Source of the DNA: Sulfuricaulis limicola
GTDB lineage: Bacteria > Pseudomonadota > Gammaproteobacteria > Acidiferrobacterales > Sulfurifustaceae
Direction: 5' to 3'
Length of the DNA stretch: 64,000 nucleotides
NCBI RefSeq assembly: GCF_002355735.1
Contig: NZ_AP014879.1
Coordinates: forward strand, 2,108,001-2,172,000
This document shows, in pieces, positions 3,970 through 61,089 of this stretch. A program made the translations under genes and the position numbers. The notes beneath the pieces are model-generated. The model searched no databases. It was not told the DNA's origin and was given only the letters and a program-made list of their open reading frames with translations. Numbering within the stretch: the stretch's first letter is position 1; each line of letters begins with the position of its first letter.

Positions 3970-4047
3970 AACCGCCAAGGCGCCAAGGTCGCCAGGAAAA
4001 GCAATATAGATATGAAAAATCTTGGCGTTCTTGGCGTCTTGGCGGTT
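3970..4047. repeat. Inverted repeat built of CGCCAAG units (nusA/infB spacer)
   Basis: Arms 3970-3996 and 4021-4047 are 27 nt each and complementary at 23 positions, with several of the differences being G.T-compatible transitions. Each arm has three CGCCAAG-like units at 8-9-nt spacing. The 24-nt centre is A/T-rich. A related array occurs at 27245-27380. It fills most of the nusA/infB spacer. Confidence 0.88.
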
Positions 4048-4088
4048 CAAAATCTTATTCATTTCATCGAGTCCCTGAAAACGGGCGC

Positions 4089-6422: not shown

Positions 6423-7178
6423 TCAGACAGATATTTTGTCCGTGGCGGCAGGCTGGCGCTGCCGCAGGGCGTCAACGCAATAGATATAGGCGATCCAGCC
6501 GAGGATTCCGCTGATCAGGCTTGCCAGGGCATTGAACAAAATCGGGCCGTCGGCGGGCAGAAATCCCGCCGCCAGCGCGGGCACGAGCACCATCAGCGCC
6601 AAAAAAACAGAATGCGACAACCTGGTCCAGGCAATGCGCAGCGCGGCCTTGAGGCCGGACAGCAGCCGGAACTCCCGCTGCACGAACACCAACGGCAGCC
6701 AGTAGACGAAGACGAAGGCCAACATGCCCGTCATGGGACCAAAATACGTCGTGAGCGTTTGCGTCAGGGCCTCGAGGTTCGAGCCTGTCAGCAACAAGGC
6801 CACGAGCACCAGCACATTCATGACCACGGCAAACAACAGGCCGGCCTTGAGCAGCAGCCACACAAACGCGGCAAAAACCGCCTTGCCTGCCCGGATGACT
6901 TCGCCAACCGGCAAGGCCTCCCGTCCCTGCGACAGGGCCTGAAACGCACCCGCCTGCAGATAGAAGAACAGCATCAAGGCCATGGCAGTCAGGAAAATGG
7001 CCAGCATCGACAGCAGCGGTGCGGCGTCCTCGGGCACGCGCCATTGCAGCATGAACATCAGCAGCAGCTGTGCCGCCAGCACGAACCAGATGCCCGGGCT
7101 GAGCACGGCGCGGACCATGGCATGCAGCCTGAGCTCACCCTCGGTACGCACGGGAATATCGCGAATAACTTCCTGCAT
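6423..7178 (-). CDS. Hypothetical multi-pass membrane protein
   Basis: The 251-residue protein has about six hydrophobic segments (near residues 27-47, 58-76, 103-127, 145-165, 190-210 and 215-235). A short basic/amphipathic N-terminus and a polar C-terminal tail predict an integral inner-membrane protein. I see no catalytic motif or transporter signature and assign no function. It stands between the tRNA-fMet gene and a cupin gene read in the same direction; the roughly 36-nt gap to the cupin gene allows cotranscription. The start ATG (MQEVIRDIP) is the first in the frame. Confidence 0.75.
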   Translation of the reverse strand: MQEVIRDIPVRTEGELRLHAMVRAVLSPGIWFVLAAQLLLMFMLQWRVPEDAAPLLSMLAIFLTAMALMLFFYLQAGAFQALSQGREALPVGEVIRAGKAVFAAFVWLLLKAGLLFAVVMNVLVLVALLLTGSNLEALTQTLTTYFGPMTGMLAFVFVYWLPLVFVQREFRLLSGLKAALRIAWTRLSHSVFLALMVLVPALAAGFLPADGPILFNALASLISGILGWIAYIYCVDALRQRQPAATDKISV

Positions 7179-16886: not shown

Positions 16887-16980
16887 GCCGCAAAGACGCA
16901 AAGAGCGCAAAGGAAGTTGAAAATCAAAAACAAAATCTGTTGTTCTCATTTTTTCTTTGCGTTCTTCGCGCCTTTGGGGC
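16887..16980. repeat. Inverted repeat built of CGCAAAG units (nuoI/nuoJ spacer)
   Basis: Arms 16887-16913 and 16954-16980 (27 nt each) are complementary at about 22 positions. Each arm carries three CGCAAAG-like units at 8-9-nt spacing. The 40-nt centre is A/T-rich. The element fills most of the 113-nt gap between nuoI and nuoJ, which is otherwise a tightly packed operon. Confidence 0.85.
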
Positions 16981-27151: not shown

Positions 27152-27241
27152 CGGAACCTCCCCGTGTTCGTGTCAAATCTGCCGAAAAACGGGCGCGATG
27201 TTACCGATGCCGGGGGCGGATTGCAATTTTATAAGGGTTTT

Positions 27242-27382
27242 AAACCGCCAAGACGCCAAGAACGCCAAGTTTTTCTATGTTGCGGCCCAGGGTGCAACGA
27301 AAATCGTTGCACCCGTTCGGCGGCGCGAATGTTCACTGAACATTCGCGAGGACCCCGCCTCACCCTTGGCGTCTTGGCGGGT
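27242..27382. repeat. Composite inverted repeat with two nested perfect hairpins (tpiA/glmM spacer)
   Basis: Outer arms of CGCCAAG units (27245-27260 and 27365-27380) are perfect 16-nt complements; the left side has one extra unit. Inside lie two perfect 11-bp stems with 3-nt loops: 27290-27300 with 27304-27314 (loop AAA), and 27324-27334 with 27338-27348 (loop ACT). The first inner hairpin and its right flank strongly resemble the hairpin at 60976-61010. No coding potential is seen in this 237-nt gap. Confidence 0.9.
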
Positions 27383-27388
27383 AATACT

Positions 27389-46034: not shown

Positions 46035-46838
46035 TTACAACGCGCGTGCCTTGCGTCGCGCGATACCCACCAGCCCCAGCAGCCCCGACCCGAACAACCA
46101 CACGGCCGGCGGCACGGGGACCGGAGCAACGGCAACCTGCATGTTGTCCAGACCCCAGCTCTCGTCGGCAAGGCCCTGCAGTCCGCTGGCCGAGAAATTC
46201 AGAACCAGATCACTGCTGTTGTGCGCAAATGTGAAGCTGAGGTTGTAGACCGAATCCATCCACTCCTCCGGACGATTATTCACCGGATCGGTAAAGGTGT
46301 AACCCAGTGAATAGCACTCGGCGGCGCCGGTCATGGGATTGTAGGTGCCGGCGGGATAGACCGCGTTATAACCGGTGTTGCAGCTGGGCGCGCCGGGAGA
46401 CGGCGCATATGACTGACCGGCGGGATTGCCATTGCTGAAGGTCGCACTTAACAAGGTCGATCCGCCAGCCACGCCCAGACTCCAGGTATCCGGGCCGAGC
46501 GGGTCACCATTCACCTGCGTGGTGTCATTGCCGTCCCAGGAACGGATCAGATAGAGACTGAACGACACCGTGGTAAACCCATGGGCCGGAAGCCCATTCA
46601 GGGACAGACTGACGGTTTCATTTCCGAACTCCCCGAGGAACAGTCGTGTGCCGGCGTAATCCGGGTTGGGTGCCGACGCGACACTCGTATCGGACCATTC
46701 GCTTCCGATCGTGCCCTGAAAGTCATTGGTATAGACCGTAGCCGCGCTCGCCGGCATGGCGAACCAGCAAGCGAATACAAGCAAAGTACGGCGCGCATAT
46801 TGCGATCCTGATACCGGCTTTATCGGTTTCTTTGTCAT
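46035..46838 (-). CDS. VPLPA-CTERM sorting-domain secreted protein
   Basis: 267 residues. The ATG at 46836-46838 has AGGGGGG upstream. The signal peptide runs to about residue 36 (CWFAMPASAA). The mature domain is beta-rich (repeated short hydrophobic/Gly/Asn segments, two Cys) and resembles jelly-roll-type exported proteins, but I recognise no named domain. The C-terminus is VPVPPAVWLFGSGLLGLVG followed by IARRKARAL. It is transcribed in line with the other two VPLPA-CTERM genes. Confidence 0.88.
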   Translation of the reverse strand: MTKKPIKPVSGSQYARRTLLVFACWFAMPASAATVYTNDFQGTIGSEWSDTSVASAPNPDYAGTRLFLGEFGNETVSLSLNGLPAHGFTTVSFSLYLIRSWDGNDTTQVNGDPLGPDTWSLGVAGGSTLLSATFSNGNPAGQSYAPSPGAPSCNTGYNAVYPAGTYNPMTGAAECYSLGYTFTDPVNNRPEEWMDSVYNLSFTFAHNSSDLVLNFSASGLQGLADESWGLDNMQVAVAPVPVPPAVWLFGSGLLGLVGIARRKARAL

Positions 46839-46866
46839 TGTGCCCCCCCTGTCATCCTGGAAACGG

Positions 46867-47556
46867 TTAAGTAGTTTTCCGTTTTTGGCGCGACGCCACG
46901 CCGAGCAGGCCAGCCAGTCCGGAACCGAACAGCCAAACGGCGGCCGGCACGGGGACGACGCTTGGATCCGGCGGAGGCAGCTGCCCCATGGAGCCGGCAA
47001 AGAATGCGCTCGTTATGCAATTTCTGTCGCCGCACCAGTTGTTCTTGCCGTACTTGCCTTTTCCGTCAATGATGTTGCACCACTCGAACCCCGCCACATG
47101 CGCCGAGAAAAGCGCGTCAAAATCATCGAGGGTTGCGCCATTGACCGTGAAGCTCAGGCTGTCGGTGCGGGACTTGCCCTTGCCCTGAAGCCGGATGTCG
47201 AATTTTCCGAACTCGCTCATTCTCCTGTCTTCCCTGATCCTCCAGGAATCCGGCAGTCCGGCGATTTCAAACCCGGATTCGTCGTTGAAGCTGAAACCGA
47301 ATTTCTGGATGCCGAAGTTCCGGCCGGCAACGTTGCTCAGCGGATCAAGCGTTTGCACGAGGAAATCCACGCCGCCGGTTCCATTTTCCGTCAGCATCAC
47401 GGACAGATAATGGTTGCCGTCGGGCAAGGTATTCGACTGGTCAAGAAAAAAGGAAACGCTGGCGGCGCGCGCGGGCAGCGCGACGAGCATCAACGCGCCG
47501 ACGAACCCGAACCCCAGGACGCGTCCTGCTGTTTTTATGCGGCGGGAAAACTCCAT
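46867..47556 (-). CDS. VPLPA-CTERM sorting-domain secreted protein
   Basis: 229 residues. The ATG at 47554-47556 follows a strong GGAGGAGT site. The signal peptide is about 1-31 (ALPARA). The mature region has conserved-looking segments typical of small beta-sandwich PEP-CTERM proteins (FLVQTLDPLSNV, FGIQKFGFSFND, CNIIDGKGKYGKNNWCG with two Cys). The sorting signal is VPVPAAVWLFGSGLAGLLG with a basic tail. It is the most upstream of the cluster, 28 nt before the next gene, so cotranscription is likely. Confidence 0.87.
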   Translation of the reverse strand: MEFSRRIKTAGRVLGFGFVGALMLVALPARAASVSFFLDQSNTLPDGNHYLSVMLTENGTGGVDFLVQTLDPLSNVAGRNFGIQKFGFSFNDESGFEIAGLPDSWRIREDRRMSEFGKFDIRLQGKGKSRTDSLSFTVNGATLDDFDALFSAHVAGFEWCNIIDGKGKYGKNNWCGDRNCITSAFFAGSMGQLPPPDPSVVPVPAAVWLFGSGLAGLLGVASRQKRKTT

Positions 47557-60930: not shown

Positions 60931-60954
60931 GGAAAACGGCGGCGGGCCACGAAC

Positions 60955-61069
60955 CCTCTCCCCTTGTTCCCGCCGGGGCGCACGAAGAATCGTGTGCACC
61001 CGTTCAGCGGGGAAAAGGTCCACCGGACCATTTCCTGTTTCCGCTTCACTTCCTGCCTCGCGGGAGAGG
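60955..61069. repeat. Inverted-repeat element with nested hairpin (znuB/fur spacer)
   Basis: CCTCTCCC (60955-60962) and GGGAGAGG (61062-61069) bound ~115 nt in the gap between the convergent znuB and fur genes. Inside, 60976-61010 is a bulged hairpin (GGGCGCACGA / TCGTGTGCACCC) followed by CGTTCAGCGG, nearly matching 27290-27323. It is another structured spacer element rather than a clear terminator. Confidence 0.7.
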
Positions 61070-61089
61070 GGGAGTCGGAAGGGGCCCCT

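Follow-up and report, generated by a model that had tools for sequence, protein, structure and literature searches.

A gene-less and very probably mobile hairpin cassette inserted in palindromic repeats and at tRNA genes of Sulfuricaulis limicola

The window analysed here, a stretch of 64,000 nt of the Sulfuricaulis limicola chromosome, raises the question of whether a hairpin that recurs inside different outer repeats is a single element, and whether that element moves. The preliminary description proposed that the same hairpin of ~35 nt begins at window positions 27290 and 60976, lies within unrelated outer repeats, and behaves like a mobile or copied module. Both sequences are found at these positions, and the outer repeats do differ, with CGCCAAG arms at the first site and CCCTCTCCCC / GGGAGAGGGG at the second. 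The shared part extends past the 35 nt, running from about 27281 and 60967 to a TCAC ending at 27363 and 61049, and includes a second hairpin and an enclosing stem. The two sites are copies of one cassette of ~85–90 nt that carries no gene. The features of the two copies and of the repeats around them are as follows (window coordinates, strand, feature and, in brackets, the evidence).

3970..4048, +, empty class A palindrome (CGCCAAG, no cassette) (half-site search)
27243..27269, +, 5' arm of the class A palindrome, AACCGCCAAGACGCCAAGAACGCCAAG (sequence, half-site matches in the chromosome)
27281..27363, +, cassette copy 1; 5' end approximate, 3' end precise (match to covariance model R1; aligned with 18 other copies)
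27290..27314, +, copy 1 hairpin 1 (hp1), GGGTGCAACGAAAATCGTTGCACCC (covariation in 5 of 9 pairs; DNA fold)
27315..27318, +, copy 1 conserved GYTC (here GTTC), the 5' foot of the second stem (G1-Y2 covary with R3-C4 of TCRC)
27319..27359, +, copy 1 stem GGCGG/CCGCC around hairpin 2 (hp2); arms 27319–27323 with 27355–27359, hp2 27324–27348, 6-nt bulge on the 3' side 27349–27354 (covariation; reproduced by the DNA fold)
27360..27363, +, copy 1 terminal TCAC, the precise 3' end (right junctions of compared copies fall here)
27364..27380, +, 3' arm of the class A palindrome, CCTTGGCGTCTTGGCGG (sequence, half-site matches in the chromosome)
60954..60966, +, left-hand portion of the class B host, CCCTCTCCCCTTG (empty orthologous site in genus relative L280)
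60967..61049, +, cassette copy 2 (R1 match 60961–61052)
60976..61001, +, copy 2 hairpin 1 (sequence, alignment, DNA fold)
61002..61005, +, copy 2 GTTC foot (sequence, foot comparison)
61006..61045, +, copy 2 stem AGCGG/CCGCT, a compensatory variant of GGCGG/CCGCC; arms 61006–61010 with 61041–61045, hp2 61011–61035 (sequence, covariation, DNA fold)
61046..61049, +, copy 2 terminal TCAC (sequence, comparison with the empty site of a relative)
61050..61074, +, right-hand portion of the class B host, made up of a small hairpin and then GGGAGAGGGGGAG (sequence, the relative's empty site)

Taken by itself, the seed pattern carries little weight: it gave four matches in the window at ≤3 mismatches against 1.7 expected. 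Covariance model R1 was built from 19 cassette copies, both window sites among them, and their scores (101.4 bits, E = 1.7e-28 for 27275–27366; 77.0 bits, E = 3.3e-21 for 60961–61052) are partly so by construction because both belong to the training set. Support independent of training comes from 27 more chromosomal matches and from the presence of the cassette in 24 of 40 related genomes. With E ≤ 0.01 the chromosome has 46 copies, and at least five different types of host sequence surround them, which disposes of two objections anticipated in the preliminary description, namely that only the two copies exist and that their flanks are homologous over the whole element.

Read 5' to 3', the cassette consists of a loose lead ending in GCC, hp1, G(T/C)TC, a five-pair stem (usually GGCGG/CCGCC) with hp2 inside it, and TC(A/G)C. 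The loop of hp2 is GTCCACNGGAC, GTTCACTGAAC or ACGTTAAGT, and a bulge of ~6 nt lies on the 3' side before TC(A/G)C. This fold is strongly supported: among the 19 copies, 98.6% of cells are paired and changes on both sides occur in 14 of 22 pairs, a level reached by none of 500 shuffles. In 112 copies gathered more widely the corresponding values are 96.7% paired and 22 of 24 pairs covarying, although that alignment was fitted to the model, so the percentages lean towards the structure. An alternative pairing of the 5' GCC with GGCGG was rejected, as it pairs 53% of cells versus 98–100% in the chosen helices. The foot reads G(T/C)TC in 108 of the 112 copies and covaries with the terminal TCRC, these pairs lying outside the model (GT/AC 89, GC/GC 14, GC/AC 4, GT/GC 0; some of the fetched copies were picked by a pattern containing CAC, while the copies from genome relatives were not). 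DNA folding of copy 1 returns exactly the structure supported by covariation, and RNA folding favours a competing arrangement. On the cassette strand G-U pairs outnumber A-C pairs (55 vs. 28) but make up only ~2% of pairs, so a DNA hairpin fits at least as well as an RNA hairpin. No Rfam family reached the gathering score for the cassette, the matches being to tRNA and 5S only.

The host sequences are the CGCCAAG/CGCAAAG, CCCTCTCCC and CCCGCTTTCGCGGG palindromes, the GACAGGATTAA element and tRNA genes, and were sorted into five classes.

Class A: palindromes of the CGCCAAG type and, in relatives, of the CGCAAAG type
Class B: CCCTCACCC...CTCCCGC...GGGAGAGGG
Class C: CCCGCTTTCGCGGGAATGAC
Class D: ends of tRNA genes, where the 5' part is usually longer and contains an additional hairpin
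Class E: elements of the form GACAGGATTAA...AATCCTGTC that carry a pair of inverted cassettes

The class A half-site CTTGGCGTCTTGGCGG has 96 matches in the chromosome (≤2 mismatches), mostly paired as palindromes of ~72 bp without a cassette. A second cassette-free palindrome in the window, of the CGCAAAG type, lies at 16887–16977; it and the palindrome at 3970–4048 seem to be variants within a single repeat family.

Empty orthologous sites and a paralogous pair of empty and filled repeats demonstrate real insertion, and they bear out the earlier proposal of a mobile or copied module. The orthologue of window site 60976 in relative L280 is empty and reads CCCTCACCCCTTG-CCCT-CTCCCGCTATCGCGGGAGAGGGGGAG (CTCCCGC follows CCCT), while the S. 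limicola site has the cassette in place of CCCT. Five genus relatives have nothing inserted on the 3' side of a tRNA-Arg gene where S. limicola has the element, flanked by two copies of CCTCTAGGGCGCGCCA and with the native terminator following the right copy. The paralogous case is L223, where CCT in one of two near-identical repeats on a single contig has given way to a cassette of 86 bp. The gap between glmM and tpiA that contains window site 27290 is bare in two relatives, and holds a cassette-free CGCAAAG palindrome in a third and a class E composite in a fourth. The differing occupants of compared sites indicate that cassette and hosts both move and that the glmM–tpiA gap has been struck repeatedly.

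Two further observations concern these loci. In several genus relatives the glmM–tpiA gap (window 27152–27388) is occupied by small mobile elements that differ from genome to genome, and it is a local insertion hot spot. The long repeat of L223 has the ends TGGCACTTACTTAAG/CTTAAGTAAGTGCCA, occurs as two copies ~5.9 kb apart (about 700–990 and 6570–6850, reverse strand), and looks MITE-like.

Only the 3' end of the cassette is precise, at TCRC|CC, and the 5' side is looser; simple copies start with YRTTCCCGCC or similar and finish with TCAC. The target is either duplicated (11–60 bp) or short of 3–4 bp. Direct repeats anchored at TCRC| with a score of at least 11 were found at 22 of 103 copies, compared with 4 of 509 mismatched controls. 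In a larger set of duplications, all 26 start with C, 24 of the 26 have C at the second position, and T precedes the cut in 19. Many duplicated targets are tRNA T-arms (GTTCRANT|CC), for which reason the upstream GTTC is inseparable from tRNA identity, and most duplications reach the tRNA 3' end or its vicinity; two sites antisense to tRNA read GCTCTA(T)|CC. Same-strand tRNA genes within 300 bp lie upstream of cassettes in 18 cases and downstream in none, and two copies (L097, L099) are placed at tRNA 5' ends. At L097 (G000 46585–47253) one tRNA-Arg gene is flanked on each side by a cassette with a target duplication.

Contigs with matches are recorded under Sulfuricaulis, Candidatus Muproteobacteria, Acidiferrobacterales, Solimonas and Lysobacteraceae, Gammaproteobacteria being among the groups reached, and further afield under Rhodobacterales, Lachnospiraceae, Nitrospira and Phycisphaerales; a few pattern matches in this wider contig search lack the fold and are evidently due to chance. 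In a phylum-wide sample the cassette was detected in 2 of 298 other genomes, a lower bound because the procedure, with 14 candidates scored per genome, recovers just 14 of the 46 copies in the source genome. A plasmid search returned seven records with the cassette, all from Rhodobacterales and non-mobilizable, and a phage search gave no cassette match. The 114 proteins adjoining cassettes belong to ordinary, varied families, and the orientation of neighbouring genes shows no preference (++ 22, −− 21, convergent 10, divergent 10).

That the cassette is a mobile, non-autonomous element is very probable. Searches with Y1_Tnp and RVT_1, among neighbouring genes and for long-distance direct repeats found no autonomous partner. 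A RAYT was rejected as partner: none of the three Y1_Tnp genes of the source genome has a nearby cassette, and two of them lie between other REP families. Among Y1_Tnp loci in relatives, 1 of 29 has a cassette in the ~1.5 kb flank, which is about chance level, and a genome with 23 copies (76% complete) has no Y1_Tnp match. A reverse transcriptase was likewise rejected, its presence being patchy and none of 20 loci being flanked by the cassette; RVT_1 is absent from a genus relative with 37 copies (99% complete) and from most genus members, in a search that could miss divergent reverse transcriptases. The 25 commonest families of adjacent proteins include no transposase, and the single long-distance direct-repeat match was L223, the filled and empty pair of another repeat. 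As a separate observation, the Y1_Tnp (RAYT-like) genes L030 and L031 (G000 1027463 and 2104881) are flanked by REPs of their own, GTAGGTTGGGGT... and GTAGGGCGCGTACCACGCGCC.

The cassette was compared with several known systems. REP/BIME sequences with their RAYT (TnpA-REP) are likewise short hairpins with a conserved tetranucleotide at the 5' foot, are gene-less, and occur in many chromosomal copies in several phyla; a model based on IS608 makes the REP tetranucleotide the guide for the cut (PMC8266576). Like some REPs, the cassette is placed inside palindromes, and nesting as such is not new since Di Nocera et al. (2013) described REPs inside palindromes as well as REPs without a transposase (PMC3733652). 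The cassette differs in its tag, GYTC rather than GTAG or CGTC, in its two hairpins with a bulged stem, its TCRC|CC end, its target duplications and its tRNA preference, and no RAYT gene is flanked by it beyond chance. CGTC-tagged REPs, which are single hairpins of 20–40 bp (PMC3733652), resemble it in being palindromic, in occurring across several phyla and in seeming to lack a transposase of their own, but tag, stem, loop and tail all differ. IS200/IS605 ends share the subterminal hairpin and a 5' guide tetranucleotide pairing with the cleavage site. The GYTC/TCRC covariation agrees with such guide pairing, and is a sign of pairing, not of cutting. Unlike those elements, the cassette has neither a transposase gene nor a conserved left target tetranucleotide, and its targets are duplicated over 11–60 bp in about one-fifth of copies, or deleted. 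The cassette works like REP and IS200/IS605 ends yet lacks defining features of each.

Bacterial MITEs (Correia/NEMIS, ERIC, RUP, Nezha) are also small, non-autonomous, intergenic, foldable and mobile, but the simple cassette has no terminal inverted repeats (inverted cassettes at both ends occur only in class E composites), its duplications have no fixed length (11 to 60 bp, or a 3–4 bp deletion), and no source IS was found. The core GYTCGGC departs from integron attC (GTTRRRY / RYYYAAC) in having C where attC has a purine. Eukaryotic SINEs have in common with it a single precise, structured 3' end, variable duplications and a tRNA association; the cassette differs from them in having no poly-A and no reverse transcriptase partner found, with RVT_1 absent from several copy-rich genomes.

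The best explanation, to which we assign a probability of roughly 0.42, is a gene-less element whose folded single strand is moved by an enzyme acting in trans, in the manner of REP or IS200-type elements, membership of either group being unproven. A single-strand route of movement is in itself a tentative proposal, somewhat short of an even chance. An enzyme supplied in trans would recognise the folded single strand of the cassette; GYTC at the hairpin foot would serve as the guide, pairing with the terminal TCRC where the cut would be made. The freed 3' end would be joined to a cut C(C) target and the other end presumably closed by replication or repair. Palindromic repeats and tRNA genes accumulate insertions, and some of the palindromes that have taken up a cassette then spread as composites. 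A guide-paired cut of a folded strand would account for both the precise end and the foot covariation, while the duplications would need a separate closing step. IS200/IS605 insertion is not known to leave a target duplication, and the duplications of 11–60 bp at cassettes argue against a route of that kind.

These duplications are explained more simply by target-primed reverse transcription. An RNA with the cassette as its structured 3' end would be copied by a reverse transcriptase onto a nicked target ending in 3' GG (the complement of CC); one end would then be precise, and the duplications or deletions would vary in length, as in SINE retrotransposition. The precise structured 3' end, the CC microhomology, the coexistence of duplications and 3–4 bp deletions across sites, and the excess of G-U over A-C pairs all fit, but the scarcity of G-U pairs, the missing RVT_1 in the nearly complete 37-copy relative and the lack of cassettes beside reverse-transcriptase loci make this route unlikely. 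The broader proposition of a cross-phylum gene-less family moving by a one-ended, SINE-like route with an enzyme of a new type is to be considered just as unlikely.

The tRNA 3' region is a usual location of integrase sites, and if a tyrosine integrase recombined the cassette site-specifically at tRNA genes, the duplications would be att cores; most of them do span the T-arm to the tRNA 3' end or near it. The same cassette 3' end is nevertheless joined to palindromes and to a few non-tRNA sites that share no common core, different tRNAs are used, the cassette measures just ~86–90 bp, and the L097 and L099 copies are at tRNA 5' ends, which leaves this reading quite improbable. Equally doubtful is a cassette that is itself now immobile, having entered each palindrome family once, with the host palindromes alone multiplying. 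Junctions are nearly identical across all copies within class A, and likewise within class B, and the whole composite is missing at window site 27290 in two relatives, both points in its favour; against it, the tRNA copies with their own duplications and the singleton sites require separate insertions, and the L223 pair records insertion into a pre-existing repeat. A selected regulatory RNA or terminator repeated by chance, which the strong conserved fold and the many copies beside tRNA 3' ends might suggest, is very improbable given the indifferent gene orientation, the ordinary neighbours, the absence at orthologous sites and the lack of an Rfam match.

The cassette is a structurally defined mobile unit outside Rfam that spans Gammaproteobacteria, Alphaproteobacteria, Firmicutes, Nitrospira and Planctomycetes, and its motif strings were not found together in a relevant context in the literature searched, which leaves out most subscription journals. 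It bears on how short palindromes without a transposase spread, a question raised for the CGTC REPs, and the covarying foot offers a concrete handle for tracing the moving enzyme. Palindromic repeats serve as insertion targets for each other, which helps to explain the origin of mosaic intergenic repeats.

The class E composites measure roughly 200–310 bp and carry the cassette inverted at both ends between outer arms GACAGGATTAA/AATCCTGTC; there are at least seven copies.

Class E elements L090–L096: G000 180559, 752921, 1666564, 1675244, 2067572, 2612125 and 2616609
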